IMG/VR virus record: IMGVR_UViG_3300003886_000018
Span: 1-42,010 of that record
Source: a virus
Reading direction: 5' to 3' (one strand)
Length of the DNA stretch: 42,010 bases
The first letter of the stretch is position 1. Each line of letters starts with the position of its first letter. The translations under genes were made by a program, and so were the position numbers. The notes under the pieces are model-generated. The model worked only from the letters and a program-made list of their open reading frames with translations, made no database searches and had not been told where the DNA came from. Shown here one piece after another: positions 10,422-30,414 of this stretch.

Positions 10422-10430
10422 TGATATAAT
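10422..10430 (+). promoter_or_regulatory. Extended -10 promoter of the small terminase gene (leaderless)
   Basis: TGATATAAT, with TATAAT at 10425-10430 and exactly six bases to the ATG at 10437. There is no ribosome binding site, so the mRNA should start at or beside the start codon. Confidence 0.75.
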
Positions 10431-10436
10431 TCAAGT

Positions 10437-11003
10437 ATGGTAAAACCGCAAAACGGAAAGAAAACCAACAAGAAGAGTAAAAAAGGAAAGAAAATCGTAG
10501 ACAACCGGAAGTTTAAGTTTAAGGATCTAGATGGTAAAACTTACATTTTAACCGCTAAGCAGAAAAGGTGGTGCGATGTTTTTCTTGAAGAAGGGGCAAA
10601 CAGAACCATTGCTTCCCTCCAAACGTATAAAATTACTAATCAGAACCTATGCCACACTCAATGGAAGTTTTTGTCAAAGAAGCAGAAAAAGATGAGAGCT
10701 AAAGCCGAACAGACGGCCGCCGTTATAGGTCAAGAAAACTTAAGAAAACCTGCTATATACGCCTATATCCAGAAGACTCTATCCGATCAGGGCTATACAG
10801 ACGATGTCGTTAGAGTTGAACATTTCAAGAATATTAAACAAGATAAAAACTTAACGGCTAAGAATACAGCTATCGATATGTATTACAAAACCACACAAAA
10901 ATATAAACCTTTAGAAGTTAACATCCATCACAAACTAGACGATGAGCAACTTGAACGAATTATCGCTGGCCGAGAAAAAAAAACTCTTAAAGCAAAGGAT
11001 TGA
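10437..11003 (+). CDS. Terminase small subunit
   Basis: A 188-residue protein. A very basic N-terminus (residues 1-26, Lys-rich) precedes LTAKQKRWCDVFLEEGANRTIAS, a helix-turn-helix DNA-recognition region typical of small terminases, and then NLRKPAIYAYIQKTLSDQGYTDD. The small subunit recognises the packaging site and hands DNA to TerL. The gene lies directly before terL and overlaps it by 62 bases. It starts the rightward late region from a leaderless promoter. Confidence 0.85.
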   Translation: MVKPQNGKKTNKKSKKGKKIVDNRKFKFKDLDGKTYILTAKQKRWCDVFLEEGANRTIASLQTYKITNQNLCHTQWKFLSKKQKKMRAKAEQTAAVIGQENLRKPAIYAYIQKTLSDQGYTDDVVRVEHFKNIKQDKNLTAKNTAIDMYYKTTQKYKPLEVNIHHKLDDEQLERIIAGREKKTLKAKD

Positions 11004-13428
11004 AGAGGCAGAACAAGATCCGCTGATCTTCATTAACCACTTTGTTTATACGTTTGATCCCCGCCTCCCGAAGCCAAATATTCCTTTTAATCTTTTTGAT
11101 TATCAGGAGAAATTAGTCAATGAGGTTTTAAAAGCCATCATGAGCGGGTATGATATCTTCATTGACAAGAGCCGAGACGTTGGTGCTACTTACACGGTAC
11201 TGGCCACGTTACTTTGGTTTTGGCTCTATCGGGATGGTTCTAACTTTTTACTAGGCTCAAGGAAAGAGTCTTACGTTGATAATCGGTTTGGTTTAAGCGG
11301 GGGAGCTGAGGTATCAAACAAAGAAGAATCTCTTTTCGGCAAACTTGATTATCTGATGACTCACTTGCCGTATTTTATGCTCCCCGGCGGATTTAATGCT
11401 AGAAAACACAATGGATACATGAAACTGCTTAACCCTGCTAATGGCAACGTTGTGTCTGGGGAAAGTTCTAATTCTAACTTCTCAAGGGGAGGTAGACAGA
11501 AAGCAATACTCTTGGACGAGTTCGCATTTTGGGAGAATGACTTCAGTTCGTGGGGAGCTACAGCCGATACTACCAATTGCCGGATAGTTCTCACAACTCC
11601 AGGAATTAAGCCGGGAAAAGCCAAGAGATTAAGATTTGGCAAAGATGGCGAAGAAATTAAAATTATTGAATTAGACTATCGACAAGACCCCCGAAAGGAT
11701 AAAAACTGGGAGCTGAGAGAGCGCGCAAGGCGGTCGGAAGAAGATTTTGGTAGAGAGATACAACGCAACTGGGATACGTCCATACAAGGGCGTGTCTATG
11801 ACGATATTATAGGTGTTAAGGTCGGATTATATCAGTATATGCCCTATCATCCTTTGTATATTTCTTGGGATTTTGGGCTTGATGGCACTGCAATCCAATG
11901 GTGGCAGATAGATGTAAAGAATGGTAAGCCAAGACTCATAGAAGCCTATTTCAATTCTAACCAACCGATCCAGTTCTTTTTCCCCCTCTTTGATAATCCA
12001 ATAGATTCAACTTTCAAGTATTCAAAATACGATCTTGAAATGATGAGAAGAACGAAAGAATACACCAAAGCTATTCATTTCGGTGATCCTGACGTGGCCA
12101 AGCGTTCATACCAAAGCAAGGCAAAAACTTCAACCAGAGAAGCCCTAGAGAGCGTGGGTATATATCTTCAAACCAATACCGAAGCTAACGATTTCTATAC
12201 TCGCTGGGAGAAAACCAAAGTCTTCTTGAGGAATGGAATTTACATCAATGACACACATGGCACGCAAGAATGGCTTGAGGCTATGCAGGAGGCTAGATTT
12301 CCCCAAAGACCAGAGAACACACAAGCCACGACCGCAATCACTAAACCAATTCATGATTGGACGTGTTTATCTGGAGATACGCTTATTAGGACATTGCGGG
12401 GATGGATACCGATCAAAAAACTGGTTAAAAAAAATTTCTATGTTTATAGTTTCTCCCCGAAAGAAAAAAGACTAGTCCCAGTTTTGGCAAAAAAATGTTG
12501 GCAATCGGGAACGGTTAAAAAACTATTAAAGATTGTTTTTGATAATGGATGGTGGATAAAATGTACACCAGAACACCGAATTATGCTAAGAACAGGAGGA
12601 TATAAAGAAGCGAGATTTTTAGAAGTAAATGACAGCGTAATGCCATTTTATGAATATGAAGACAGGGGTTATAAAAGAATTATTCTTAACGATGGTTCTT
12701 ATGCTCATGAACACAGATATATATATTCCAGATTGCACGGCTTTATAGAACGAGGAATGCATATAGATCATATTGACGGTGATAAAACCAACAATAATCC
12801 TAATAATTTGCAAATGTTAAACCAATACGATCACTTTATGAAGTCTAAGATTTGGAAAACAAACCGTAAAATAGCTGAAAAAAAAAGAGTTGATACTATT
12901 ACTGCACAGACATATATGAAGAAGTGCCCGATTTGTTTAAAATATAAAATGATGTCTTTCAAAAGCGTCTATTGTTCGCCAAAATGTAGACAAAAAGCCT
13001 CTACAGCACAATGTAGGATTGATAGAATTGCAAAACATACAAAACAAAAAGTATGTTGTTTTTGTGGTGCTCAATATATGGGTTATCCACGAGATAAAAC
13101 CTGTTCGCCAAAGTGCGCCAAACTCCGAACTGTAAGATTTAAAAAACTTTATTCAAAAGCAATTAGAGGTGGACAAAAAATTAGGATGACAGAGGTTGAT
13201 TTGTTTAAAAATCATTTAATTATGTCTATTACTACAGTTAATAAAGAAAACATACCAGTATATGATATTGAAGTGCCATATTATCATAATTTTGTGGCGG
13301 GTTCAATCGTTGTACACAATTCTCACCATCGGTCGGCAACAGAATATCTTGTGGTAAACTTACCCCGTGAAAAAAGAGAAAAAATGGAAGCAGTAGAAAC
13401 ACCAGTTATTTTAGATCCTTATGACTAA
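10942..13428 (+). CDS. terL: Terminase large subunit interrupted by an intein
   Basis: 828 residues as read; about 509 after splicing, a normal TerL size. The ATPase half has a deviant Walker A KSRDVGATYT (76-85) and Walker B AILLDEFAFW (188-197). The nuclease half has SWDFGLDGTA (D310) and HFGDPD (D382). Residues 475-793 are an intein inserted after HDWT; the host protein resumes SHHRSATEYL. TerL cuts concatemers and drives DNA into the prohead. The splice joint restores DWT-SHH, the conserved last nuclease motif, a typical intein site. The ATG at 10942 lies inside terS; no other start is better. Confidence 0.93.
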   Translation: MSNLNELSLAEKKKLLKQRIEEAEQDPLIFINHFVYTFDPRLPKPNIPFNLFDYQEKLVNEVLKAIMSGYDIFIDKSRDVGATYTVLATLLWFWLYRDGSNFLLGSRKESYVDNRFGLSGGAEVSNKEESLFGKLDYLMTHLPYFMLPGGFNARKHNGYMKLLNPANGNVVSGESSNSNFSRGGRQKAILLDEFAFWENDFSSWGATADTTNCRIVLTTPGIKPGKAKRLRFGKDGEEIKIIELDYRQDPRKDKNWELRERARRSEEDFGREIQRNWDTSIQGRVYDDIIGVKVGLYQYMPYHPLYISWDFGLDGTAIQWWQIDVKNGKPRLIEAYFNSNQPIQFFFPLFDNPIDSTFKYSKYDLEMMRRTKEYTKAIHFGDPDVAKRSYQSKAKTSTREALESVGIYLQTNTEANDFYTRWEKTKVFLRNGIYINDTHGTQEWLEAMQEARFPQRPENTQATTAITKPIHDWTCLSGDTLIRTLRGWIPIKKLVKKNFYVYSFSPKEKRLVPVLAKKCWQSGTVKKLLKIVFDNGWWIKCTPEHRIMLRTGGYKEARFLEVNDSVMPFYEYEDRGYKRIILNDGSYAHEHRYIYSRLHGFIERGMHIDHIDGDKTNNNPNNLQMLNQYDHFMKSKIWKTNRKIAEKKRVDTITAQTYMKKCPICLKYKMMSFKSVYCSPKCRQKASTAQCRIDRIAKHTKQKVCCFCGAQYMGYPRDKTCSPKCAKLRTVRFKKLYSKAIRGGQKIRMTEVDLFKNHLIMSITTVNKENIPVYDIEVPYYHNFVAGSIVVHNSHHRSATEYLVVNLPREKREKMEAVETPVILDPYD
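12364..13320 (+). mobile_element. Intein with HNH homing endonuclease in TerL
   Basis: 319 residues. It begins CLSGDTLIRT (nucleophile Cys1, block A), has TPEHRI (block B), and ends IPVYDIEVPYYHNFVAGSIV plus VHN (blocks F/G, penultimate His and terminal Asn), followed by Ser+1. The middle is an HNH nuclease (HEHRYIYSRLHGF, HIDHIDGDKTNNNPNNL) and two CxxC pairs (CPICLK...CSPKC and CCFCGA...CSPKC), probably zinc ribbons. All splicing residues are present, so self-removal is expected. The region is more A/T-rich than the flanking exteins, in line with horizontal spread. Confidence 0.95.
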
Positions 13429-13624
13429 ACCATTTCATCCTATAGTTAAAGAGAAAAAGATAAACATAAACGTGTCCGGAAGAGAGGCGGATTTGCTCTA
13501 TAAATTACGTCAATATCCCTTCGGACGATTTACAATCCACAAAATGAATAATCTTCTAATTCGCATTGAGATTAACAATAGTGAACTTATTGAGGAGGAG
13601 GGCGGACTTGCGATTAGGCAATAG
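13421..13624 (+). CDS. Hypothetical 67-residue protein
   Basis: MTKPFHPIVKEKKININVSG... overlaps the end of terL by eight bases. Short beta-strand-like segments (FTIHKMNNLLIRIEI) and an acidic end. A small accessory of packaging is possible from position only; no family is recognised. Confidence 0.65.
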   Translation: MTKPFHPIVKEKKININVSGREADLLYKLRQYPFGRFTIHKMNNLLIRIEINNSELIEEEGGLAIRQ

Positions 13625-13636
13625 AAGTTTTATAAT
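13608..13636 (+). promoter_or_regulatory. Leaderless promoter before the 113-residue gene
   Basis: TTGCGA (13608-13613), a 17-base spacer and a perfect TATAAT (13631-13636), then exactly six bases to the ATG at 13643. Confidence 0.65.
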
Positions 13637-13642
13637 ATTTAT

Positions 13643-13984
13643 ATGGATACATTGAAAGTTAAAAAGGTAAAAGGCAAGATTACCGTATTACAAGCGATAC
13701 CTTACCAAGGCGTTATGGTATATCTTCGAAAAATCGGAGGTAGTATCTTTGAATATCTCATTCCTTACCAAGGACAGATATATTCTTCATATCTGATTAT
13801 CAAACCAGCTAAGGGTAAAACCAAACTAGCCAAATGGGAGATTAACCAAGCGGCTGCTTTGATTTTTACGTCGGCTGTGGCAACTATCAATTTCTTACAA
13901 GGTAAAAAGATTAGTCCAAAAATGAAAGCAGTTGTTAATGTTATGGAAAAATCACGTAGTAAAGTTGAAAATTTAGTAAACTAA
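13643..13984 (+). CDS. Hypothetical 113-residue protein
   Basis: The N-terminal half is beta-rich and basic with two similar pieces (AIPYQGVMVYL and LIPYQGQIYSS). The C-terminal part is helical (QAAALIFTSAVATINFLQGKK). The 18-base helix-rich AAALIFTSAVATINFL stretch is hydrophobic but short for a membrane span. The gene has its own leaderless promoter. Function is unknown. Confidence 0.65.
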   Translation: MDTLKVKKVKGKITVLQAIPYQGVMVYLRKIGGSIFEYLIPYQGQIYSSYLIIKPAKGKTKLAKWEINQAAALIFTSAVATINFLQGKKISPKMKAVVNVMEKSRSKVENLVN

Positions 13985-13985
13985 T

Positions 13986-14135
13986 ATGCCAGTAGCATTT
14001 GAGAATTGTATCAGCAAGGGTGGAAAGGTTCGCACCAAAAAACTCAAAGGACATAAATATATCCACATCTGTTTTTTAGGAGGCAAGTCTTATGCCGGAG
14101 AAGTTAAAACTTATAAAAAGATATTGAAGAAATGA
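13986..14135 (+). CDS. Hypothetical 49-residue basic protein
   Basis: MPVAFENCISKGGKVRTKKL... reads without interruption to TGA at 14133-14135 and overlaps the portal start as ATGA. It fills the whole gap between two genes and is Lys/Gly-rich, like many small phage proteins (KYIHICFLGGKSYAGEVKTYKK). The pattern CFLGGKSYAGEV is reminiscent of very small beta-hairpin proteins. No function is known. Confidence 0.65.
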   Translation: MPVAFENCISKGGKVRTKKLKGHKYIHICFLGGKSYAGEVKTYKKILKK

Positions 14136-16087: not shown

Positions 16088-16416
16088 CCAATCAACTTTT
16101 TCAAACAGAAGAAGAAAAACAAGACGCTATAACAATCTTTGAGAGAGGCGTTGAACAACCATTTTGGAAACTCCTTGTCAAAGTGTTAGAAGTGAATATA
16201 AAAACAATCTCTCATCTGATCCTTGAGGGATTAAACCTTAAAGGAGAGATAGCCACACAGGAAGAAACAAATAGACTACGCGATAAGTTAAAGGCATATA
16301 AAGAACTAAAGAATGCTCCCTACCAATTAGTTGAAAAACTACAGTCGCCCGCTCAAGAGCCAATCAACCTAGATCCTTATTACACCACCAAGGAACTTAA
16401 AAAACTTCGTTCTTGA
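16084..16416 (+). CDS. Hypothetical 110-residue helical protein
   Basis: MTNQLFQTEEEKQDAITIFERG... is helical throughout, with a charged stretch (EETNRLRDKLKAYKELK) suitable for a coiled coil. Lying between portal and the scaffold-like gene, it may be a head accessory protein. Its start overlaps the portal stop (ATGA). No family is recognised. Confidence 0.65.
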   Translation: MTNQLFQTEEEKQDAITIFERGVEQPFWKLLVKVLEVNIKTISHLILEGLNLKGEIATQEETNRLRDKLKAYKELKNAPYQLVEKLQSPAQEPINLDPYYTTKELKKLRS

Positions 16417-16439
16417 CAAGATAAATTTTATGATATAAT
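16413..16439 (+). promoter_or_regulatory. Strong promoter of the scaffold-like gene
   Basis: TTGACA (16413-16418), a 15-base spacer and an extended -10, TGATATAAT (TATAAT 16434-16439). The start point would be near 16446, at the beginning of the shared leader. It overlaps the end of the 110-residue gene. Confidence 0.8.
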
Positions 16440-16445
16440 ACGCGT

Positions 16446-16467
16446 ATTAATAGTTAATGGAAAAACC
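16446..16467 (+). promoter_or_regulatory. 5' leader element shared with the capsid gene
   Basis: The predicted transcript begins ATTAATAGTT and continues to TGGAAAAACCA. The capsid leader (17674-17698) has the same order with CGGAAAAACCG. The loop-closing pair changes from T-A to C-G, as in a small conserved hairpin. The ATG inside this element opens only a nine-codon frame. Confidence 0.6.
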
Positions 16468-16473
16468 AATACT

Positions 16474-17085
16474 ATGGCAGAATTAAATTTAGAAGAAGTA
16501 TCACAAATCGCTCCAGACGAACTTTCGGAAGATCAACAAACATTCATTAAAGACAACGCTGATGATTTATCAGACGAACAGAAAGAAACATATAAAGGTA
16601 TTATTGAAGAAAAAGAGGAAGAAGTTAAAGATCCTGAAGATATAGAGATTGAAACACGTCAAGCATTAAAGGAAGCAAAAGATAAAGACGATGATGAGGT
16701 TGATCCAGATGATGAAAAAGTCATTGAGAAGATTGTGGCTAAAAAACTAAAAGAAGCAGGTCTTTCTACAACCAAAGACCAAGTCGAAGTTGACGCGTAT
16801 TTAAGAGCAAATCCAGATTTCGGTAAATATAGATCTGTTATGCTTAAATATCTTGCTCACCCTGCATATCGCAACATACCTGTTTCCAACGTGGCTGCGA
16901 TTGTTGCTGCCAAAGATATGCAGAAGTTAGGTGCTAAGAAAGAAAGAGAAGTCTCAAAGAAAGCTAAAGCTACTCAATCGGGAGGATCAAGCGCAAGAAA
17001 AGCCGATGGTGGTAAAATTGATTGGTTTAAGGCTTCTAGTAAAGAAGTAGAAGCAGAAGTTTCCAAAGTATTAAGACAAAGATAA
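16474..17085 (+). CDS. Putative scaffolding protein
   Basis: 203 residues, very acidic and helical in the first half (DEQKETYKGIIEEKEEEVKD, KDKDDDEVDPDDEKV). A middle piece YLRANPDFGKYRSVMLKYLAHPAYRNIPVSN recalls scaffold-like proteins of N4-gp56 phages, and there is a basic, Ala/Lys/Ser-rich C-terminus. It lies between portal and capsid and has a strong promoter. Scaffolds direct capsid assembly and leave or are cleaved afterwards. The call rests on composition and position. Confidence 0.75.
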   Translation: MAELNLEEVSQIAPDELSEDQQTFIKDNADDLSDEQKETYKGIIEEKEEEVKDPEDIEIETRQALKEAKDKDDDEVDPDDEKVIEKIVAKKLKEAGLSTTKDQVEVDAYLRANPDFGKYRSVMLKYLAHPAYRNIPVSNVAAIVAAKDMQKLGAKKEREVSKKAKATQSGGSSARKADGGKIDWFKASSKEVEAEVSKVLRQR

Positions 17086-17095
17086 ATTATTAGTT

Positions 17096-17101
17096 TATAA
17101 T
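17096..17101 (+). promoter_or_regulatory. Leaderless -10 element before the 173-residue gene
   Basis: Perfect TATAAT with six bases (ATATAT) to the ATG at 17108. A weak GACA-like -35 lies about 17 bases upstream. Confidence 0.55.
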
Positions 17102-17107
17102 ATATAT

Positions 17108-17629
17108 ATGGAAGATTTACAAAATAAAACACTAAAAGAACTAAGAGAGATGGTTGTTAAGTTAGGAATGACACCTAAAGACGCAGAATTGTTTGGTTTT
17201 AAAAAACCTTTGATTGCGACTATTAAAGCATTTTCTTCTAAAATGCCGAATAAGTCAGACGATGAAGATTTTAATAAACTCTATACTTCTAAAGCGGAAA
17301 GAATGAGAGCTAAACTAATGAAGCAACCACGGGTCAAGATTAAACTTCCTCTACAAGCAAAAGAAACAATAGGCAAAGTTAAATGGTTGTTCAATCCTAA
17401 GACCAAACGGAAAGAGCAGGTATATTTTGGTGGGGCATTTCTAGCTGTCCAGTTAAACGGATTCAAATGGTTAGTGCCTAAAGGAGTATACACAGATGTT
17501 CCTCAACAAATCTCAGAAACTATAGATGAGGCAGACCGAAGAACACAGGAAGCAGGGAAACAATGGTTAATAGACAGAGAGGGCAAAGATCCTAAGACTG
17601 GACTATCTGTAAAGGATGTATTGGGATAA
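17108..17629 (+). CDS. Hypothetical 173-residue head-region protein
   Basis: The N-terminus (NKTLKELREMVVKLGMTPKD) looks like a SAP-type helix-extension-helix that could bind DNA. The middle (KETIGKVKWLFNPKTKRKEQVYFGG...GFKWLVPKGVYTDVPQQISE) has the strand pattern of small virion proteins. It ends just before the capsid promoter. It may be a minor head or DNA-binding protein; there is no firm family. Confidence 0.65.
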   Translation: MEDLQNKTLKELREMVVKLGMTPKDAELFGFKKPLIATIKAFSSKMPNKSDDEDFNKLYTSKAERMRAKLMKQPRVKIKLPLQAKETIGKVKWLFNPKTKRKEQVYFGGAFLAVQLNGFKWLVPKGVYTDVPQQISETIDEADRRTQEAGKQWLIDREGKDPKTGLSVKDVLG

Positions 17630-17640: not shown

Positions 17641-17669
17641 TTGACATTAAGAAAACCATTCTGTATTAT
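17641..17669 (+). promoter_or_regulatory. Strong promoter upstream of the major capsid gene
   Basis: Perfect TTGACA (17641-17646), a 17-base spacer and TATTAT (17664-17669). The start point would be near 17674-17676. This is the best-matching rightward promoter in the window. Confidence 0.85.
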
Positions 17670-17673
17670 AGAA

Positions 17674-17698
17674 ATTAATTAGTTGTAACGGAAAAACC
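17674..17698 (+). promoter_or_regulatory. 5' leader element of the capsid transcript
   Basis: Predicted RNA start: ATTAATTAGTT, then CGGAAAAACCG, matching the leader at 16446-16467 in order and spacing. It leads directly into the terminator hairpin. Confidence 0.6.
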
Positions 17699-17699
17699 G

Positions 17700-17730
17700 A
17701 GCGCTAAGTCGTAAGACTGGCGCTTTTTTT
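17700..17730 (+). terminator. Intrinsic terminator/attenuator between capsid promoter and capsid gene
   Basis: A hairpin of AGCGCTA(a)GTC with GACTGGCGCT around a GTAA loop (17700-17724), followed by seven T residues (17724-17730). It lies only about 25 bases after the predicted start point. It would end upstream transcripts, and it would also stop most transcripts from the capsid promoter unless readthrough is arranged, leaving a small RNA of about 55 bases. Confidence 0.8.
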
Positions 17731-17751: not shown

Positions 17752-18717
17752 ATGCTAACAGGTAGAACACAAATTCCAGCAGAGGTTAATAACTTTTATA
17801 GTAGAACTCTTTTAGAGAGGTCTATTCCTTCTTATTTACATAATCGTTTCGCAGAGGTAAGAGACCTTCCGGCAAAAGCAGGAACAGATACGATGAAATT
17901 TAGAAAATATGGTTCATTGGCAGCGGCTACCACGCCTTTAACGGCAGGAGTTACGCCAGCAGGCAATCAGTTATCCACGACCACAATCACCGCACAGATC
18001 TTACAATATGGTGATTATGTTACGACAGACGATGTGGTTAATTTGGAAACCAAAGATCCTTTATTGACGGAATTGGCCACCATACTAGGTGAACAAAGTG
18101 GTAACACTCTTGATCAACTTTGCCGAGATGTTATTGTAGCGGGAACGACAGTTCAATACGCTTCAACGGCAACCGCTAGAAGTGAAGTCAGTTCAACAAT
18201 GTTGATAAATAGAGATGAAATTATGCAGGGAGTTAGAACCCTACAAGGTAATAATGCTAAAGTGGTAACTTCAATGATAGATACTTCGACTGGTTACAAT
18301 AGTAAGTCAGTCGCTAAATCATTCATCGGAATTTGTAGCAACAAAACCTTGTTTGATTTGAAAAAAGCAACTGGTTGGACACCAGTTAAAGATTATGCTT
18401 CTAAAGGCGATGTTATGGAAGATGAAAAAGGAGCATTAGACGAAGTTAGGTTCTTAATGACAACCAATGCTAAGGTATTTGCTAGTGCTGGAGCAGGTTC
18501 AATCGATGTTCATGCAACCTTAATTATTGGTAGACGGGCTTATGCTCAATCAAGAATTTCAGGCGCGGCAATGGAGAACATTGTTAAACCTTTAGGTTCA
18601 GGTGGAACACAAGATCCTTTGAATCAGAGAGCAACCTCAGGTTGGAAAGCAACCTATGTAGCTATCATTTTACAACAGGGATGGTTGTTAAGAATTGAAC
18701 ACGCAGTTTCAAGTTAA
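17752..18717 (+). CDS. Major capsid protein, N4-gp56 family
   Basis: 321 residues. The N-terminal half is characteristic: VNNFYSRTLLERSIPSYLHNRFAE, then GTDTMKFRKYGSLAAATTPLTAG, then ITAQILQYGDYVTTDDVVNLE and LGEQSGNTLDQLCRDVIVAG. These are the hallmarks of the N4-gp56 family of HK97-fold capsids. It builds the icosahedral shell. TATAAA five bases plus the T-rich tail before the ATG may give a second, leaderless start; a strong promoter with a terminator lies further upstream. There is no Shine-Dalgarno sequence. Confidence 0.92.
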   Translation: MLTGRTQIPAEVNNFYSRTLLERSIPSYLHNRFAEVRDLPAKAGTDTMKFRKYGSLAAATTPLTAGVTPAGNQLSTTTITAQILQYGDYVTTDDVVNLETKDPLLTELATILGEQSGNTLDQLCRDVIVAGTTVQYASTATARSEVSSTMLINRDEIMQGVRTLQGNNAKVVTSMIDTSTGYNSKSVAKSFIGICSNKTLFDLKKATGWTPVKDYASKGDVMEDEKGALDEVRFLMTTNAKVFASAGAGSIDVHATLIIGRRAYAQSRISGAAMENIVKPLGSGGTQDPLNQRATSGWKATYVAIILQQGWLLRIEHAVSS

Positions 18718-18722: not shown

Positions 18723-18728
18723 TATAAA
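18723..18728 (+). promoter_or_regulatory. Leaderless -10 element before the 109-residue gene
   Basis: TATAAA with exactly six bases to the ATG at 18735. No good -35 at normal distance. Confidence 0.45.
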
Positions 18729-18734
18729 TAAAAT

Positions 18735-19064
18735 ATGGCAACGACACAATCTCAGACAATGCACCAAGTTAGAAACGTAGCAGTTGGAAGCTATATCATC
18801 GAGTCTGGTGATACAGCGGCCGCAATTACGATTACTTGCGGATTTAAACCACGTTATGTTAAAGTTCTTAACGAAACTTCCAGAGACTGGGAGGAATGGT
18901 TTGAAGGTATGACTGACGCTTATGCTCACAAAACAGTAGCAGCAGGCACAGGCACACTTGCCTCTAGTAATGGTATTACAGTAGCTGATGATGGTTTTGT
19001 TATCGGACTTGATACAGACATCAATGTTAAAGCCGAACAGATCCGTTGGATCGCAATGGGTTAA
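18735..19064 (+). CDS. Putative head decoration/structural protein
   Basis: 109 residues, beta-rich, with ITITCGFKPRYVKVLNETSRDWEEWFEGM and a C-terminal VKAEQIRWIAMG. This pattern is common in small virion proteins encoded straight after the capsid gene. A cementing or decoration role is inferred from position and small size. It starts at a leaderless-type site. Confidence 0.7.
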   Translation: MATTQSQTMHQVRNVAVGSYIIESGDTAAAITITCGFKPRYVKVLNETSRDWEEWFEGMTDAYAHKTVAAGTGTLASSNGITVADDGFVIGLDTDINVKAEQIRWIAMG

Positions 19065-19079: not shown

Positions 19080-19283
19080 ATGGCAAAAAAAGTTGTCGCT
19101 AAAAAAAAGGAAGTAAAGAAAGTAAAAAAAGCAACTCATGGAAAGTTTGAAACTGTTAAACAAGTTTCTTTCAATGTTAACGGTAAACAATTTAATGGAG
19201 TTAAGTTTGTTTTTCCTCTTGAAGTTGTAGAAGCAAGGAAACAATTATTAATCAATGCTTATGGCAAAGACATTATAAAATAA
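19080..19283 (+). CDS. Hypothetical 67-residue basic protein
   Basis: A Lys-rich N-terminus (AKKVVAKKKEVKKVKK) is followed by beta-strand-like residues (VKQVSFNVNGKQFNGVKFVFPLE). It lies among small head genes. The start is preceded only by A/T-rich sequence (AAATAAATATG). A head-completion or DNA-associated role is possible; no family is recognised. Confidence 0.65.
   Translation: MAKKVVAKKKEVKKVKKATHGKFETVKQVSFNVNGKQFNGVKFVFPLEVVEARKQLLINAYGKDIIK
19274..19279 (+). promoter_or_regulatory. Leaderless -10 element before the 84-residue gene
   Basis: TATAAA with exactly six bases to the ATG at 19286; it overlaps the end of the previous gene. Confidence 0.4.
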
Positions 19284-19285
19284 AT

Positions 19286-19540
19286 ATGGCACAAATATTT
19301 TCCGGTGTACCCGGCAACAGTTTAGCAACAGAACAAGTATTACGAAGTATCTTGACTGATATAACTGCTCTTAAAACCGCAGTTGATACTCAGAAGACTT
19401 TACTTGATGAATTGAAAAGTTGGGCCACCACTCTAGCCACCAAACTTAATGCAGACGCTGGAGTAACTGACACTGACTATGACGCGACTATATCGGCAGC
19501 TGCTCCCACCGCAGTTGGCACGTTAGAAACGACCACTTAA
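19286..19540 (+). CDS. Hypothetical 84-residue structural-region protein
   Basis: MAQIFSGVPGNSLATEQVLRS... has a long central helix (ILTDITALKTAVDTQKTLLDELKSWATTLATKL) with heptad spacing, likely a coiled coil. The tail is Ala/Thr-rich (TVGTLETTT-like). It sits in the small-gene cluster after the capsid. Function is unknown. Confidence 0.65.
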   Translation: MAQIFSGVPGNSLATEQVLRSILTDITALKTAVDTQKTLLDELKSWATTLATKLNADAGVTDTDYDATISAAAPTAVGTLETTT

Positions 19541-19914: not shown

Positions 19915-19923
19915 TGATATAAT
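19915..19923 (+). promoter_or_regulatory. Extended -10 leaderless promoter before the neck-protein gene
   Basis: TGATATAAT, with TATAAT 19918-19923 and exactly six bases to the ATG at 19930. Confidence 0.7.
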
Positions 19924-19929
19924 AAAACC

Positions 19930-20685
19930 ATGACACCCGCAGAATTTGCTACATACATAAGGTTAAAAACTCGAACAAATAGTACTACTTTCTCTGATAC
20001 AGACATCCTCGCTTTAATGAAAGTGCGCCAAACAGAGATAGCTCAGGCTATCCTCAAGGCCGATGAAGACATTCTACTTATTCCTCAAACGGCTGATTTA
20101 GTCGCCTCAACCATTACGGCCAGAGAATACCCTGTTCCTTCTGATATTCTTTCCCGGATGAAGAGGGTAGAAGCTCAACTCAATGGCACAGATTGGATTG
20201 TTTTAACCGAGATAGACTTAAACAAGATAGATACTTCTGTTGCTACCGAGTCGGATATTACAACCTATTTTAATAACTATCAAGTAAGTCCTACTAATAC
20301 CAATGGAGCGAGGTTTGACATTTTAAGAAAATCTATCTATATCTATTCCGGCACGATCACCGCAACGACTAATGGATTGAAAATGTGGTGCGATACATGG
20401 CCAACAGCTATCACGGATTTAACTGGCACTACAGACATGAGTCAAGATCCCTCAACCACTACTCATGGTATACCTAGAGCCTTACACGAGATATGGGCTA
20501 GAGGAGTGATTATAGATTACAAGGGAAGTAAAGAGAAACCTATTCCCTTAAATGAAAGAGAGTTAAATTACGAAAAAGATTTGCAGAAGGCTATTGAAAC
20601 ATTGAAACATGGAAATCTCGATAGAGAAGTCATTGGAGAATTGCCACCGTCAGAGGCATATTGGAACGATGGAGCAGATCTCTAA
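19930..20685 (+). CDS. Head-to-tail adaptor (neck) protein
   Basis: 251 residues. The opening MTPAEFATYIRLKTRTNSTTFSDTDILALMKVRQTEIAQAIL is helical, followed by REYPVPSDILSRMKRVEAQL and a helical C-terminus (IPRALHEIWARGVIIDYKGS). This is the form of connector/adaptor proteins of podo-like phages, which sit below the portal. The position between head and tail genes fits. The family call is by appearance. Confidence 0.65.
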   Translation: MTPAEFATYIRLKTRTNSTTFSDTDILALMKVRQTEIAQAILKADEDILLIPQTADLVASTITAREYPVPSDILSRMKRVEAQLNGTDWIVLTEIDLNKIDTSVATESDITTYFNNYQVSPTNTNGARFDILRKSIYIYSGTITATTNGLKMWCDTWPTAITDLTGTTDMSQDPSTTTHGIPRALHEIWARGVIIDYKGSKEKPIPLNERELNYEKDLQKAIETLKHGNLDREVIGELPPSEAYWNDGADL

Positions 20686-20709: not shown

Positions 20710-20718
20710 TGGTAATAT
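20710..20718 (+). promoter_or_regulatory. Weak leaderless -10 element before the 66-residue gene
   Basis: TGG followed by TAATAT (20713-20718), six bases before the ATG at 20725. The hexamer is imperfect but the spacing matches the other late sites. Confidence 0.35.
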
Positions 20719-20724
20719 ATAAAT

Positions 20725-20925
20725 ATGAAACCTAAATTCAGTATTGGCGACAAAGTTGTTGTTAAAAACGATCCTGTCGCAGAAGTTCACAAGGTCTTGA
20801 GTTTTTCTTACGATGGTAAGTTTGTCTACAAAGTATCTTCCAGAGAACTTGATATCCCAAAGAAGAAGGTTGTTGATGGTATTAGTCATTTTACAGAAAA
20901 GGAGCTTAAAAACTATGAAAAGTAA
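20725..20925 (+). CDS. Hypothetical 66-residue protein
   Basis: MKPKFSIGDKVVVKNDPVAEVHK... resembles small SH3-like beta-barrel proteins of the KOW type (FSIGDKVVV, FVYKVSSRELDIPKK). Its last codons contain the AAAGGAG site for the next gene, with which it overlaps by 11 bases. Function is unknown. Confidence 0.65.
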   Translation: MKPKFSIGDKVVVKNDPVAEVHKVLSFSYDGKFVYKVSSRELDIPKKKVVDGISHFTEKELKNYEK

Positions 20926-21595: not shown

Positions 21596-21625
21596 TTGAT
21601 AAAGCCCACCTTGATATAGTATAAT
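21596..21625 (+). promoter_or_regulatory. Leaderless promoter before the 284-residue tail gene
   Basis: TTGATA (21596-21601), an 18-base spacer and a perfect TATAAT (21620-21625), exactly six bases before the ATG at 21632. Confidence 0.7.
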
Positions 21626-21631
21626 CAAGAT

Positions 21632-22486
21632 ATGGCAGACGCAATTAAAAACTTTGCTTACGGCACAGTTCTAACCCCACCCTCACCAGCTACTACTGGA
21701 ACGTCTTTAGTCCTAAATAGCGGTCAAGGGGCTAGACTTCCCGACCCAGCGGTAGACGGAGCTTACAATATCGTAATGAAGCCCGCAGGGACTATTCCTT
21801 TATCTTCAAACGCTGAAATAGCAAGGGTAACAGCCATCTCAACAGACACTTTAACGATTGTTAGAGAACAGGAAGGTTCATCAGCTAGAACGGTTATAGC
21901 GGGTGATGAGGTTTATCTTTCACTAACCAAAGCCGTAGCGGACAACTGGGTTGATAAAGACTCGGCTCAAACCATTACAGGTATTAAATCATTTAGTGCT
22001 ACACCTAAGATGGATGCGATTGCAGAAAAGACAGCAGGAGCAGGGGTAACGATAGATAGTGTTTTGTTAAAAGATGGTGGAGCAAAATTATTAGATGCTT
22101 CTGTGTTAGATTGGACATCTGGAGCTAAAATTGAACGTAATAGTGGAGACATTAAACTTACACCCGAAACAGGTAAATTTGTTGAAATCGCAGTAAGACG
22201 ACAAGGTGGAAGTGCAACACAATGGTATATGGCAGGAACTACCAATTATAATGAAACAGGGGTGATTATACAATGTGGCGTATTCTTATTAACCACGGCG
22301 GGAACTGTCTATCCAATAACTTTTCCAACTGCTTTTAGTGATATACCCCTTGTTATTTGTAGTGCAGACCAAGCGGGAGCAGGATATGTTTCAACAAGAG
22401 ATGCCTCTCCAACTAGTATTAAGTTTACGGGTTCTACCTCTGGACAAACTGTTCATTGGATAGCTATTGGTAAATCAGCAGTATAA
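21632..22486 (+). CDS. Tail/receptor-binding candidate
   Basis: 284 residues. The N-terminal part (LNSGQGARLPDPAVDGAYNIVMKPAG, EIARVTAISTDTLTIVREQEGSSARTVIAGDEVYLSLTK) is a common attachment module of phage fibres. The centre has beta-helix-like pieces. The C-terminus (GVIIQCGVFLLTTAGTVYPITFPTAFSDIPLVICSAD...HWIAIGKSAV) looks like the carbohydrate-binding tip domain of fibre proteins (gp53-like). It may contact the host surface. The exact role is inferred. Confidence 0.7.
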   Translation: MADAIKNFAYGTVLTPPSPATTGTSLVLNSGQGARLPDPAVDGAYNIVMKPAGTIPLSSNAEIARVTAISTDTLTIVREQEGSSARTVIAGDEVYLSLTKAVADNWVDKDSAQTITGIKSFSATPKMDAIAEKTAGAGVTIDSVLLKDGGAKLLDASVLDWTSGAKIERNSGDIKLTPETGKFVEIAVRRQGGSATQWYMAGTTNYNETGVIIQCGVFLLTTAGTVYPITFPTAFSDIPLVICSADQAGAGYVSTRDASPTSIKFTGSTSGQTVHWIAIGKSAV

Positions 22487-22513: not shown

Positions 22514-22522
22514 TGATATAAT
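22514..22522 (+). promoter_or_regulatory. Extended -10 leaderless promoter before the repeat-rich tail gene
   Basis: TGATATAAT, with TATAAT 22517-22522 and exactly six bases to the ATG at 22529. Confidence 0.75.
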
Positions 22523-22528
22523 GAGAGT

Positions 22529-25297
22529 ATGCTGGGAAACAACTTTTACGGACAGAACACTTATGGAGGGTTGCCTACCTATGGCACAGACTACACTTTA
22601 AGTTTAAGCGATAGTATCGCTTCTTCTGACTCTTTAATTAGGCAAATAACCAAATCAATTTCAGACACAACCAGTTTGACCAGTTCATTAAATAAACTTC
22701 TTAACAGGTCGGTTACTGATACTTTAACCCTAAGTGATATTATAACCCGATTTCCTAAGAAACTTATATCCGACACGCTGACTCTAACTGACTCAATGTC
22801 TGTTGTAAAGTCTTTTACCAAAGCCCTATCTGATACTTTAACTCTCACTGGTTCACTAGCCAAAAAGGTTACCAAAGCTCTCTCAGAGTCTATTTCTTTA
22901 TCAGATGGAGGAGGCTCTACTTCTGAGGGGGCAAACTCACCGGGAACAGCGGTAGATGATGATGGAACATTAGTCCATAGTTATGAAATAGCAAATGCTT
23001 ATGGTGGCAGTACTCTTGCTAAAAGCAGTATAACAAAGGTTGGTCAGTCATTTATTGGTAATGGTCAGGTCTTGGCTAGTATGAGTTTTGATATTGCTAA
23101 GTTGAATTCTCCAACTGGCAATGCGTATGCAGAAATATATGCAACAACTGGAACTTTTGGCACTAATATGATTCCGACAGGTTCTCCCTTAGCAACTTCT
23201 GATGGGATAGACACAACAACACTTTCAACATCTTACGGATTGGTTAATTTTATCTTTAGCGGGGCAGATAAAATTACTTTGACTCAAGGGACTTATTATT
23301 GTGCAGTTCTTAGATATGATAATACATTCATTCCTGACGGGGTTGGTTTCAAATGGGATAGCAGTTCTCCAACAGATAGTGGGAACATTGCAACATATAG
23401 TGCGTCTTGGACAAGTTCTACAACACAAGATTTAATTTTCTATGTTTATGTAGACCCAGTAGGAACTAGTGTTTGGAGTAATCCCACTAATGCAGAGGTA
23501 AGTGATAATGTTTATGCAGAGGTAGTGCCATTTGTTCAATCACACTATCTAAAAGCTACCAACTTCGGCTTTTCTATTCCGATTGGCGCAACAATAGATG
23601 GTATTGTCGTAGAGTTTAAGAGGGCAACAACAGCGGGTTCAGAGGACACAGCTGATGTAGAAATAAAAATAGTTAAAGGTGGCGTAATTGGATTAACTAA
23701 TAAATCAACTGGGGCAGTATGGTACTATGGAATTTTTGTTTATGATAGTTTTGGTTCTTCGTCTGACTTATGGGGAGAAAGTTGGTCTGCCTCAGATATA
23801 AATAGTTCTACCTTTGGAGTTGTTTTATCTTGTGAAGATGCGCAACTAGGAAGTGGTAGTCCAACTTCTGATGTAGACCACATCCGTATTACTGTCTATT
23901 ACACAACAGGTGGGGGCGTAGTCAAATCAGTTACCAAGGTTGTATCTGACACAGCCACCTTGACAGAAACGTTCTCAAAATACCTACAGAGAGCTTTTGC
24001 TGATACAATCACCCTAGTTGAGTCGTTTACTACAGCGGGGACAACATCTAAGTTATTTAGTGAAACAGTTATCTTGACGGATAGCATAACTAAATCTATA
24101 ACAAAAGCAGTTTCAGAAGCGGTTACATTGGTTTCTTCATTGTCTATTGTAAGCACGTTAAAAAGGATATTTTCAGACACAATTACCCTAGTTGAGTCAT
24201 TTTCAATCGCTCAATCGTTTGGAAAGGTATTAAGTGAAACAATCACCCTAACTGACTCAATCGCAAAATCTATTCAAAAAGGAATATCAGATACGATTTC
24301 TACAGTAGAGAGTTTTACTAAATCAATGTTTAGGGCTTTATCAGATACTGTAAGTTTGACAGACTCTATCTCTTCCAACACAAGTAAAGGCGTTGTATTA
24401 AGCGATACAGTTACTCTAACTGATAGTCTAACTAAGTATATTCAAAAGACATTCTCTGACACACTAACTCTGGCGGGTAGTTTAGCTAAATACTTACAGA
24501 GAGTCTTAACTGATACATTAAGTTTATCCGATACAATCGGCAGACAAATAAACAAAGCTTTTTCAGAAACCATTAGTCTGGCCGAAACCATTACGCGCGC
24601 TATAACTAAACCTTTAAGTGATACGATTTCTCACACAGAAACAGTTATTAAAACCTTACAGAGGAGTTTAAGTGAGAATATTAGTCTATCCGATACATTA
24701 AGCACAATCTTAAACAAAATCAAGAGTTTTACAGACGTGGTGAGTTTGACCGAGAGTTTGGCTAAATTTATCAGTAAGTCTATATCAGACACAATTTCAA
24801 CAGTTGGCTCATTAAATATAGGCAAAGTCTTTAATAGAACTTTAACAGACACCATAACATTAGTAGACTCTATTATTGCTGGCCATTCTTATGGTCGGGT
24901 ATTCACAGAAACGATTGTATTAACCGAGAACATAGTTAAATCAATCAGTAAAACTTTAACAGATACGTTGACCCTCACAGATAGGATTAGAAAGTATCTA
25001 AACGGGCTTTTGGTTGGGATATGGACTAAGACTACCAAAGCCACCGATACATTCGTTAAAACGGCTAAAAACGCTACAAAAACAGTGGCTACAGCAGGAG
25101 TTGCTATCTTTGGCGGATTCTTCTATGGTGAGAATTATCTAGGTGGTTCAAGTGAAGACCAATTAACCAGTCGGGGAATTTGGGATTTGGTTGATAAAGC
25201 AACTACTACCTTTACTAAGGTGGCTAAACAGGTTACTACGTTTGCTAAAACAGTCAAGAGAACCTTGACGTGGACCAAAACAGAGAAGCCTAATTAA
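22529..25297 (+). CDS. Large repeat-rich tail/adhesin protein (922 residues)
   Basis: Starts with MLGNNFYGQNTYGGLPTYGT, then repeated units of about 18 residues around SDTLTLTDSL (residues about 22-128). A globular insert (about 130-465, with SHYLKATNFGFSIPIGATIDG and SDVDHIRITVYYTTGG) is followed by a long run of more such units to about residue 830, then a Lys/Thr-rich end. Regular Ser-x-Thr-x-Thr repeats suggest an extended beta-structure used as a surface-exposed fibre or adhesin. A receptor role is inferred from repeats and tail-gene context. The gene has its own leaderless promoter. Confidence 0.75.
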   Translation: MLGNNFYGQNTYGGLPTYGTDYTLSLSDSIASSDSLIRQITKSISDTTSLTSSLNKLLNRSVTDTLTLSDIITRFPKKLISDTLTLTDSMSVVKSFTKALSDTLTLTGSLAKKVTKALSESISLSDGGGSTSEGANSPGTAVDDDGTLVHSYEIANAYGGSTLAKSSITKVGQSFIGNGQVLASMSFDIAKLNSPTGNAYAEIYATTGTFGTNMIPTGSPLATSDGIDTTTLSTSYGLVNFIFSGADKITLTQGTYYCAVLRYDNTFIPDGVGFKWDSSSPTDSGNIATYSASWTSSTTQDLIFYVYVDPVGTSVWSNPTNAEVSDNVYAEVVPFVQSHYLKATNFGFSIPIGATIDGIVVEFKRATTAGSEDTADVEIKIVKGGVIGLTNKSTGAVWYYGIFVYDSFGSSSDLWGESWSASDINSSTFGVVLSCEDAQLGSGSPTSDVDHIRITVYYTTGGGVVKSVTKVVSDTATLTETFSKYLQRAFADTITLVESFTTAGTTSKLFSETVILTDSITKSITKAVSEAVTLVSSLSIVSTLKRIFSDTITLVESFSIAQSFGKVLSETITLTDSIAKSIQKGISDTISTVESFTKSMFRALSDTVSLTDSISSNTSKGVVLSDTVTLTDSLTKYIQKTFSDTLTLAGSLAKYLQRVLTDTLSLSDTIGRQINKAFSETISLAETITRAITKPLSDTISHTETVIKTLQRSLSENISLSDTLSTILNKIKSFTDVVSLTESLAKFISKSISDTISTVGSLNIGKVFNRTLTDTITLVDSIIAGHSYGRVFTETIVLTENIVKSISKTLTDTLTLTDRIRKYLNGLLVGIWTKTTKATDTFVKTAKNATKTVATAGVAIFGGFFYGENYLGGSSEDQLTSRGIWDLVDKATTTFTKVAKQVTTFAKTVKRTLTWTKTEKPN
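23925..25015 (+). repeat. Long array of diverged 18-residue coding repeats
   Basis: About twenty imperfect units of about 54 bases encode variants such as FSDTITLVESF, LSETITLTDSI and LTDTLTLTDRI. The DNA copies are diverged, though short identical stretches recur. Similar units occur earlier in the same gene (about 22598-22905). Confidence 0.8.
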
Positions 25298-25298
25298 G

Positions 25299-25307
25299 TG
25301 GTATAAT
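25299..25307 (+). promoter_or_regulatory. Extended -10 leaderless promoter before the tail hub gene
   Basis: TGGTATAAT, with TATAAT 25302-25307 and exactly six bases to the ATG at 25314. Confidence 0.7.
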
Positions 25308-25313
25308 AATAAT

Positions 25314-26753
25314 ATGAGAAACAACATCATAGAGCTAAAGAATTTTGACATGGGAGGACTGGCTTATTCTAAATGGAGCGGAATTAAAGACTCATTTTAT
25401 AAACTCACAGGTTGGGATCTGCATAGTTCACCCGGATTGTTGAAAGTCGCCCAAAAGATGAGCAAGGATAGTGGGTCAGTAGTTACGGAATTATGTAAAG
25501 CTAGAGTTAGCTCATCAAATGGCGCTCAATACTGGGGCAGTTCTACATCAGGCAAGATTTGGGAACATACATCAGGTGGGACTTGGCGACTGGTTCATAC
25601 TGTTACTCCTGCCGCCGGCACAGCCAACATTTTAGGCATGGCAGAATATCAAGGATATATCTATATTGCTACTCAAAGCAGATTACATAGAATTACTGTA
25701 GCAAAAGCAGACGATAATAACTGGGCGGCTGATTTAACAGAAGACTGGGCTACTTTTGGAGTTACAGATAGCGAATTTCACCCTATGCTTTCACACCCGC
25801 AGACATTGGTTTTATACATCGGGGATGGCAACCAGTTGGCTCAAGTTGACGCTGGGACATTCTCTGCTAACGCTTTAGATATAAAAACACCTTTAAGGAT
25901 TAAGTCTTTGGGAATTATGGGAACAGACATACTGCTTGGTACTTATGTATCCGACAGTGTAACCAAAACACAGATAGTCAGGTGGAATACTTGGAGTGAT
26001 AGTTTCACGGTCGCAGATGAAATACCGGAAGTAGGGATAAATGCTTTTCTACCGGCAGACAATTTTGTTTTAGTTCAAGCCGGCAATCAAGGGAATATTT
26101 ATTACTATGACGGGAGCAAGCTTGAATTATATAATCGGATACCCGGTGATTATTCTCCTACAGCGTATGGTGAGGTCTATCCCACGGCCGTTGGAAACAT
26201 AGGTGGCCAGATACTTTTTGGTTTCTCTAATGGTTCAGGCAATCCAGCGGATCAGGGAGTATATAGAATAGCCAGAAGCTCAAGAAACCATCCGTGGGTT
26301 ATGGATTTTCCTTATCCTATATCAGAGCGTTCAGCTAGTAATTTGGTAGTTACTGGGCTTGAAATAGGAGGGATTTTAGTTGTAGGGAATGATATTTATG
26401 TTAGCTGGAAAAACGGTTCAAGTTATGGAATTGATAAACTGGATTATAGTGCGAAACTAGAATTAGCCTATTTTGAGAGCAGGGTCATGATTATCAATCG
26501 GGAACAGTTCTCTAACTTTTCAAAGTTTGTTGTTGCTTATGCTTCTCTACCTTCAAACACTGACATCACAATCCAATACAGCAAAAACTATGGCAGTTAT
26601 GTGAACACTACAGAAGTAACTGATACCGACAGGTTTATAATTCAAGCGCAGGAGGGTGTGGAGACTACAAATCTTATGTTAAAAGTTAGTCCTACTGTAA
26701 GTGGGGACAATGCCCCAGAAATTGAATCAGTAGGGATATTCCTGTCGGAATAA
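25314..26753 (+). CDS. Tail hub/beta-propeller virion protein
   Basis: 479 residues with repeated aromatic strand pairs (ILGMAEYQGYIYIATQSRLHRI, PQTLVLYIGDGNQLAQVD, ADNFVLVQAGNQGNIYYYDG, IGGQILFGFSNGSG) like blades of a beta-propeller. An N-terminal MGGLAYSKWSGIKDSFYKLTGWDLHSSPG segment matches the opening of phage tail tubular or stabilisation proteins. It probably forms the central tail structure to which fibres attach. The precise family is not certain. Confidence 0.65.
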   Translation: MRNNIIELKNFDMGGLAYSKWSGIKDSFYKLTGWDLHSSPGLLKVAQKMSKDSGSVVTELCKARVSSSNGAQYWGSSTSGKIWEHTSGGTWRLVHTVTPAAGTANILGMAEYQGYIYIATQSRLHRITVAKADDNNWAADLTEDWATFGVTDSEFHPMLSHPQTLVLYIGDGNQLAQVDAGTFSANALDIKTPLRIKSLGIMGTDILLGTYVSDSVTKTQIVRWNTWSDSFTVADEIPEVGINAFLPADNFVLVQAGNQGNIYYYDGSKLELYNRIPGDYSPTAYGEVYPTAVGNIGGQILFGFSNGSGNPADQGVYRIARSSRNHPWVMDFPYPISERSASNLVVTGLEIGGILVVGNDIYVSWKNGSSYGIDKLDYSAKLELAYFESRVMIINREQFSNFSKFVVAYASLPSNTDITIQYSKNYGSYVNTTEVTDTDRFIIQAQEGVETTNLMLKVSPTVSGDNAPEIESVGIFLSE

Positions 26754-26757
26754 AATT

Positions 26758-28655: not shown

Positions 28656-28783
28656 AAACATTAAAACAAAAAATATTAGCAGATACAATAACCCTGCAGA
28701 AAAAGTTTGTTATTGTTAGAAAAACTTTTAAACCATTACAAGAACAAATTAAATATGGCAAAATCATTACAAACAAGAATTGA
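28652..28783 (+). CDS. Hypothetical 43-residue basic protein
   Basis: MKTLKQKILADTITLQKKFV... overlaps the previous stop (ATGA) and the next gene by 29 bases. It is basic and helical. It may be a small assembly chaperone of the fibre, by position alone. Confidence 0.5.
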   Translation: MKTLKQKILADTITLQKKFVIVRKTFKPLQEQIKYGKIITNKN

Positions 28784-28991
28784 TAGTGTTGAGAAGACTC
28801 TAAAAAAAGCATTGTATGATAATAAATTAAATCTCGAAACAGTTATAGATTTCCCTAAATATAGACAATTACCGCTTTCTCTTCAATTAACCTTAGCTTT
28901 ATTACAACAAGAAGGGGCTATCATAGTTAGAAAATATACTCTACAAACCAAACCTCTTCCTTTAATTCCTAAGAAAAAAGTGGTAAAATAA
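28755..28991 (+). CDS. Hypothetical 78-residue protein
   Basis: The start at ATG 28755 (TTAAATATGG) fits the A/T-rich starts of this phage better than upstream near-cognate codons. The product (MAKSLQTRIDSVEKTLKKALYDN...) is helical with an Ile/Leu-rich segment (LSLQLTLALLQQEGAIIVRKY) and a basic end, PLIPKKKVVK. Function is unknown. Confidence 0.6.
   Translation: MAKSLQTRIDSVEKTLKKALYDNKLNLETVIDFPKYRQLPLSLQLTLALLQQEGAIIVRKYTLQTKPLPLIPKKKVVK
28981..28989 (+). promoter_or_regulatory. Extended -10 leaderless promoter before the internal-virion gene
   Basis: TGGTAAAAT, with TAAAAT 28984-28989 and exactly six bases to the ATG at 28996. Confidence 0.6.
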
Positions 28992-28995
28992 GCTC

Positions 28996-30414
28996 ATGGC
29001 AAGCATAAACGGTATTTCAGAACCTAAGGGTGGTTGGAAACAAGGAGAGTGGTATCAAGCAAGGCAGTATTGGGGCGGGACATTAAGCCAGCCCGGACAA
29101 ATCAATTCTCTATCTGATCAACAGGGTGCGGGTCAACAAGTCTCCAAAGAGGTGGTCAATCAAACAAATCCTAATAATTATAGTTACATACAACAAGGAG
29201 CAGGAGGAAAGGTTATTAGCGAGAGTGAAGCCTTAGCAAAAGGGTGGGATATTAACAATCTTCCCGGTGGATATGTAAGACAACCTCAAACTAAAGAACA
29301 GGTTACTCCTTATCTCAATAATTTAGGTCAGCAACTCTTTCAAAACAAAGAAAATCCAAAAGTGAGAACCCCCACAATGGATGAAATCAAGAAGCAAGTT
29401 ACCCCCTCTCAAGGTCTACCGTCATTGTTAAACAGAACAGATGAACGAGCAAAACTAAGGGAAAATTTAGGCGTAGCTGACCTTGAACAGGGCTTAACAG
29501 ATATTAAATCTCAAGTAGACGCAGAAATGGCCAATATGAGAAAACAAAGAGGTATTGAAGAGGGCAAACCAGTTCCTATGAATGTAATACAGGGCAGGAT
29601 TTCTAAAGAGGAAAGGGCGGCTCAAGAAAGGATTGATGTATTAGGCAGAGAGCAATCAAGACTTACTAATGAGTTGAATACTAAATATACGATTATTGGC
29701 CAGCAAATGCAGGATATGGGGCTTGACTACAATGACGCGGTTAAGAGATATGATCAAGAATTCAATACTAATATGAATATGTATAAACTCATATTAGGAC
29801 AAGAAGACAAAGCCCTAACTCAAGAGAATAGGGATAGAACCTCCGCACTGGCTAATCTTCAAATATATACGAATGCAATTACTAAAGGCAATTTGAATTA
29901 TTCTAGTATGGGAGCAGACCAAAAATTAATGATCAGGAAACTTGAAATACAATCAGGATTGCCGGTTGGATTTATGTCTAGTCTACAAATGAATCCGAAA
30001 GACAGAATACTAAGTATTAATAGTAAAACAGGTGAGGCTTTAACCATTGGTCAAGACGGCAAATTCAAAGTCTTACAGACGGGAATGAGAACGACTGGTA
30101 GTAGTAGTGGTGGTATGTCTTATACGCCTAAACAAACACAAGTTAAAGTAGCTGACGCAATTAAGATTCTTAAAAAAATAGATGCAGGTTACCAAACGAT
30201 TGGCGGTAAATTGAAAGAAACTCCAAAATATACAACTAATGAATATGGTGAACGAACGCAAATCACCTCTAGAGGAGATAGAAAATTATCATCACAAGAA
30301 TCAGATTTAGCATTACAACAAATTATTGATAGTGTGGGTGGTAATGTTGCTCTTGGTGAAAAACTATTTAAACAAGCAATTAAGGGAGGAAATTATCATG
30401 CTTGGAAACCATAA
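28996..30414 (+). CDS. Putative internal virion/ejection protein (472 residues)
   Basis: A Gln/Gly-rich N-terminus (GGWKQGEWYQARQYWGGTLSQPG) is followed by a long helical middle (about 130-300, LEQGLTDIKSQVDAEMANMRKQRG, RISKEERAAQERIDVLGREQSR) and a Gly/Ser linker. Its position directly before the giant virion protein and its helical, Gln-rich composition match internal virion proteins of podoviruses that are ejected with DNA. No enzymatic domain is seen. Confidence 0.6.
   Translation: MASINGISEPKGGWKQGEWYQARQYWGGTLSQPGQINSLSDQQGAGQQVSKEVVNQTNPNNYSYIQQGAGGKVISESEALAKGWDINNLPGGYVRQPQTKEQVTPYLNNLGQQLFQNKENPKVRTPTMDEIKKQVTPSQGLPSLLNRTDERAKLRENLGVADLEQGLTDIKSQVDAEMANMRKQRGIEEGKPVPMNVIQGRISKEERAAQERIDVLGREQSRLTNELNTKYTIIGQQMQDMGLDYNDAVKRYDQEFNTNMNMYKLILGQEDKALTQENRDRTSALANLQIYTNAITKGNLNYSSMGADQKLMIRKLEIQSGLPVGFMSSLQMNPKDRILSINSKTGEALTIGQDGKFKVLQTGMRTTGSSSGGMSYTPKQTQVKVADAIKILKKIDAGYQTIGGKLKETPKYTTNEYGERTQITSRGDRKLSSQESDLALQQIIDSVGGNVALGEKLFKQAIKGGNYHAWKP

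Follow-up and report, generated by a model that had tools for sequence, protein, structure and literature searches.

The virus genome analyzed here, an IMG/VR virus record of 42,010 bases (referred to as the window), shows a -10 hexamer that ends exactly six bases before the ATG of many late genes. With a probability of about 0.8, these TATAAT-N6-ATG arrangements are host sigma70-type promoters, mostly of the extended -10 class, from which the late mRNAs are predicted to be transcribed without a leader. The genome is ~63% A/T and its late intergenic stretches are A/T-rich. Minus-strand early genes extend up to 10.3 kb and include those of RecT, a DNA methylase and a DnaD-like helicase loader; the majority of early proteins match no recognised family. 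The plus-strand late genes start at 10.4 kb and encode the small and large terminase, portal, major head protein, fibre-like proteins and a CHAP/NlpC-like protein; two tRNA-Gln genes are found on the same strand. The small terminase gene (terS) was identified by weak Pfam/PHROG matches and the major capsid gene (17752..18717, plus strand) by PHROG 1357 (E 1.5e-65), and the start of the giant tail ORF was taken as TTG 30402 from the open reading frame list. Megablast against 50,697 phage records gave no match, and therefore no annotated relative; tblastn of the terminase and capsid against known phages gave distant matches only (~36% at most), which do not name the host, and an Rfam scan found nothing beyond the two tRNAs. 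The large terminase contains an intein (window 12367-13320, residues ~476-793; Pfam Intein_splicing, E 8.8e-16) with an HNH endonuclease domain, which is absent from the relatives L010, L011, L015 and L016.

Direct reading of the plus strand shows a perfect TATAAT ending at -7 before seven ATGs: those of terS (gene 10437-11003; TGA-TATAAT-N6-ATG at 10422..10439), gene 13643-13984 (13631..13645), gene 17108-17629 (17096..17110), gene 19930-20685 (TGA-TATAAT-N6-ATG, 19915..19932), the fibre-like gene 21632-22486 (21620..21634), gene 22529-25297 (TGA-TATAAT-N6-ATG, 22514..22531) and gene 25314-26753 (TGG-TATAAT-N6-ATG, 25299..25316). The same place is occupied by TATAAA in genes 18735-19064 (18723..18737) and 19286-19540 (19274..19288), and by TGG-TAAAAT in gene 28996-30414 (28981..28998). 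Every coordinate of the initial annotation, which had listed hexamers six bases before these ten ATGs, was thus borne out. An additional gene encoding the CHAP/NlpC-like protein (38479-39456; TGG-AATAAT-N6-ATG at 38464..38481) lies outside the interval covered by that annotation and had been missed. The twelfth motif gene is 20725-20925, where the imperfect TAATAT that had been noted is present as TGG-TAATAT-N6-ATG (20710..20727). The extended TG at -15/-14 is found at 10437, 19930, 22529, 25314 and 28996, the five cases previously reported, and also at 20725.

Perfect TGnTATAAT at a gap of six bases opens a gene in all four of its occurrences. Of four other plus-strand copies, one precedes the tRNA pair (39964), and the others have gaps of 34 (16439), 33 (39667) and 8 (40532). 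The two tRNA-Gln genes (anticodons CTG and TTG) are adjacent (window 39956-40292), and TGATATAAT, which ends at 39964 upstream of them, is probably their promoter. The copy TGC-TATAAT-N8-ATG precedes a 68-aa ORF (window 40527-40747) with no Pfam match, which is perhaps a further short-leader gene.

Analysis of the -10 position relative to every start, as proposed in the initial annotation, shows an excess at gap 6 over background. Perfect hexamers at this gap were found in 7 of 30 plus-strand starts and hexamers within one mismatch in 11 of 30; given a local background of 0.0007-0.0056 per position, binomial p values range from 2e-16 to 3e-10 for the perfect hexamer and are 3e-11 or lower for the one-mismatch count. 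No perfect hexamer is present at any other gap between 0 and 32 nt before plus-strand starts. Among the late starts, 7/29 show the perfect hexamer versus 0/567 other plus-strand ATGs of the late region (Fisher ~3e-10), and with up to one mismatch the figures are 11/29 versus 7/567 (Fisher ~1e-11). The spacing thus exceeds what A/T-rich DNA gives by chance, and the motif is shared by 12 of the 29 curated late starts; the remaining late starts do not show it, so that the earlier statement that late genes share it stands for part of them. L009 has DNA 100% identical to that of the phage and is therefore not an independent confirmation. None of the 24 minus-strand gene starts shows the motif at gap 6. 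Several early starts on this strand (5643, 6018, 6232 and 8393) have in common TTAAAAGTTAAA, located 10-20 nt upstream of the ATG, possibly as a signal for early genes or as the context of a stop codon.

The motif is concentrated at starts separated from the preceding gene by 10 bp or more (10/14, versus 2/15 of the other starts; p 0.0025), and late starts lacking it mostly overlap or abut the preceding gene. All 12 motif genes begin with ATG. In 11 of them no Shine-Dalgarno (SD)-like 4-mer was found, and the single match, GTGA, overlaps the extended -10 itself. Clear SD sites are few in the phage (20915, AAGGAG; the giant ORF at ~30.4 kb, GGGAGG; and 39453). The mutual exclusion of SD and motif is not significant within the phage, since SD sites are rare among its late genes in general.

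Conservation of the -10 box was also observed directly in sister phages. Phages with ~56-72% identical portal proteins keep it before the same genes, at gaps of 5 (L160, L040), 6 (L166, L167) or 9 (L159, L164). Pooled over ten close relatives, 19 of 178 starts show a -10 at gap 5-9, versus one at gap 15-19 and one at gap 25-29. Gene by gene, orthologues of 13643 show it at gap 5-6 in L167, L162 and L040; those of 19930 in L160 (gap 5), L166 (gap 6) and both L164 and L159 (gap 9); that of 21632 in L160, as CTATAAT-N5-ATG; and those of 25314, as TATAAT, in L166 (gap 5), L160 (gap 7) and L159 (gap 9). In the orthologue of gene 17108 in L164/L010, an SD-like GGGGGTG replaces TATAAT-N6. This recurrence at varied gaps indicates that one promoter per gene is a trait of the clade, and that the preference for exactly six bases is most pronounced in this phage. 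With gaps ranging from 5 to 9 in the sister phages, the data agree equally well with a leader of 0-3 nt and with no leader at all.

The host of the phage is probably a member of the Patescibacteria (CPR bacteria), a link based on one MAG-binned phage contig, the promoter dialect and tRNA similarity. A contig binned into a Ca. Saccharibacteria MAG carries a terminase relative with 57% identity. Among ~380 sampled Patescibacteria genomes, the terminase search found no other close copy, and the portal search found no close copy and one marginal match. The tRNA-Gln(TTG) shows 89% identity over 55 bases with a copy in one Patescibacteria genome, a short and weak match obtained with no control phylum.

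The signal in this phylum was observed directly. Of the 361 genes called in the Saccharibacteria MAG, 30 show TATAAT (up to one mismatch) at gap 6, and the distribution has shoulders at gaps 7-9; in 40 of 40 of its relatives TATAAT-N6-ATG exceeds the reversed-pattern control (1099 versus 415). Across 116 Patescibacteria genomes, TGnTATAAT-N6-ATG was found 722 times versus 66 in the control (6.7 versus 0.6 per Mb, ~11-fold), and across 61 Bacillota genomes 230 times versus 78 (1.5 versus 0.5 per Mb, 2.9-fold). In the Patescibacteria genome G153, 44 of 333 genes show the motif at gap 6, 42 of the 44 with the TG and 43 with an ATG start. SD-like 4-mers precede 0% of these motif genes versus 52% of the other genes, a measurement made in G153 alone; the motif genes of this genome thus form a separate SD-free class, as expected for leaderless mRNAs. 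With 100 TGnTATAAT-N6-ATG sites over 0.7 Mb, G153 (L133-L156) greatly exceeds the other sampled genomes.

The fixed spacing, the extended TG in half of the cases and the position at unit starts support the proposal of the initial annotation that late genes have individual sigma70 promoters with leaderless starts, and it is further backed by the lack of SD, the gene-by-gene persistence in sister phages and the SD-free class of Patescibacteria. With the -10 box at -12 to -7, host RNA polymerase would start at, or within ~1 base of, the A of the ATG, and the resulting mRNAs would be translated from their 5'-terminal AUG without SD pairing. These promoters would open each late transcription unit, and genes inside a unit would presumably be translated by coupling through overlap or from SD sites. 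The host, probably a patescibacterium, would have its own SD-free leaderless class built alike. The 5' ends, their translation and the host identity are all deduced from sequence.

Two late promoters of a different type were also found. The first, a leadered TTGACA-N15-TATAAT (with TGA), is located together with a hairpin at 16413..16468 on the plus strand, upstream of gene 16474-17085; the hairpin, TGG-AAAAA-CCA, is at 16458-16468. The second belongs to a plus-strand cassette before the capsid gene (17641..17730) that contains a TTGACA-N17-TATTAT promoter (17641-17669), a CGG-AAAAA-CCG hairpin (17689-17699) and an intrinsic terminator stem (17700-17724) with a T run to 17730. The capsid ATG follows ~20-22 nt after this T run and is preceded by a TATAAA ending 5 nt before it. 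The cassette is conserved in about ten related phages and, with its strong promoter, hairpin and terminator, could give rise to a small RNA of ~55 nt. These two promoters are the only ones on the plus strand of the form TTGACA-N14-19-TAnnnT (with the -10 allowed up to one mismatch). Scans for generic -35/-10 pairs and for terminators were not above shuffles overall, and the named sites alone were used. A third hairpin, CCG-CAAAA-CGG (10446-10456, plus strand), lies inside the first codons of terS.

The hairpin, of consensus CGG-AAAAA-CCG, is present in 24 copies on 11 phage contigs, with L164, L160 and L166 among the phages that have it, and its three stem pairs are intact in 24 of 24. All of C-G, G-C, U-A and A-U occur at the outer pair, with compensatory changes in 8 cells; 100% of cells are paired over the three pairs, and the covariation score was reached by 0 of 500 shuffles. 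This covarying hairpin is so far unreported. Most copies start 15-21 nt after the -10, which mostly places them ~10-13 nt into the inferred RNA; for a few copies the best-scoring -10 is closer and the promoter assignment uncertain. In different phages the terS hairpin is read in different frames, which indicates that its nucleotides and not the peptide are conserved. It begins 9 nt after the A of the ATG, versus 11-12 nt from the inferred RNA start in the leadered units, a distance that fits a transcript beginning at the ATG and gives indirect support to the leaderless start. The hairpin is likeliest a nut-like antitermination or regulatory RNA signal. No partner protein was found, with no PHROG antiterminator match among ten early proteins, and no boxA was seen by eye near the hairpin. 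Its anchoring to the transcription start hints that part of the late region may also be read as longer transcripts. Tentatively, a phage factor may act through the hairpins of terS, 16474 and the pre-capsid unit to control polymerase at the pre-capsid terminator, the other late genes using leaderless promoters of the Patescibacteria type.

Another reading, in which the late region is mainly read as one or a few long transcripts from the two TTGACA/-10 promoters and that of terS, with antitermination at the hairpin and the ATG-proximal boxes as secondary boosters, seems rather doubtful. In favor of it, both TTGACA promoters have the hairpin a short distance into their inferred transcripts, many relatives keep an intrinsic terminator ahead of the capsid gene, and many late genes overlap; however, it leaves the six-base spacing, the TG and the matching host gene class unexplained, and no antiterminator gene is recognised among ten early proteins. 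Long transcripts and leaderless promoters are compatible and do not exclude each other.

That the boxes are read by a phage-encoded sigma factor or activator instead of host sigma70 is improbable. Their confinement to the late strand, with early genes lacking them, would agree with such a factor, as would the lack of a recognised family for most early proteins, but both the hexamer and its extended TG conform to the ordinary sigma70 consensus and do not differ from those of the chromosomal class of Patescibacteria, and no sigma-like match was found among the proteins scanned. Little credence, too, is given to the box being an A/U-rich unstructured translation-initiation element of a polycistronic mRNA. 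Positions -1 to -12 are A/T-rich, and a precedent exists in Flavobacterium, where SD-less initiation is described as tuned by structure and nearby bases (PMC6847099); such an element does not account for a specific TATAAT hexamer at one phase, for a TG at -15/-14 in 42/44 genes of G153, in the host phylum, or for the absence of the motif from equally A/T-rich early gene starts. Chance in a genome of this A/T content and with such intergenic stretches was ruled out by the perfect gap-6 hexamer counts at non-start ATGs and at starts, and its probability is negligible.

If the leaderless reading is true, start-codon promoters with leaderless mRNAs would be a standard class of genes in the Patescibacteria, which form a very large group with few cultured members, and phages of this group would depend on the class for late expression. 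Gene-start prediction for Patescibacteria genomes would change, a sequence signature would be available for assigning phages to these hosts, and translation initiation in Patescibacteria would become directly testable in cultured Saccharibacteria. Searches of the open-access literature for leaderless expression in Patescibacteria, Saccharibacteria, CPR or their phages gave no report, and as far as this literature shows the host phylum is what is new here. Leaderless late expression in a phage is not new, since leaderless late mRNAs are known in phiYS40 and extended -10 promoters in P23-45.

The nut boxB of phage lambda forms an RNA hairpin close to the promoter and ahead of terminators, and its pentaloop is rich in A. 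The covarying promoter-proximal hairpin ahead of the pre-capsid terminator resembles it, a resemblance only; it differs in its 3-bp stem and AAAAA loop, with no boxA or N-like protein recognised.

Among phages with leaderless expression, most middle and late mRNAs of Thermus thermophilus phage phiYS40 have no leader (PMC3594737). The phage analyzed here may express its late genes likewise, with the corresponding sequence features in 12/29 late starts; it is unrelated and probably has a host of another phylum. For phiYS40, a rise in IF2 and a fall in IF3 are also described. The middle and late promoters of Thermus phage P23-45 are likewise of the extended -10 class and less affected by gp39 than -10/-35 promoters (PMC7403470), although its gp39/gp76 host switching has no recognised counterpart in this phage. 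In Deinococcus-Thermus, including the D. radiodurans -10 motif, TANNNT is located 6-7 bp before ORFs in a class separate from SD genes (PMC12340547). The -10-to-start geometry is the same, but those are chromosomal genes, with TANNNT most often TACACT versus the extended TGnTATAAT found here, and the word phage is absent from the main text of that study. In many phyla, the TA-led genes of Zheng 2011 show a -10-like signal ~10-12 bp ahead of the start, and several low-GC genomes also have a TG peak (PMC3160421); Patescibacteria are not listed among the sequenced genomes in the passages of that survey considered here. The phage shares with TA-led genes a -10 at the distance that would bring transcription initiation onto the start codon, in 7 perfect sites and in 11 when one mismatch is allowed, and the lack of SD before the start codon in 11 of 12 motif genes, and it appears to follow the promoter arrangement of its own probable host.
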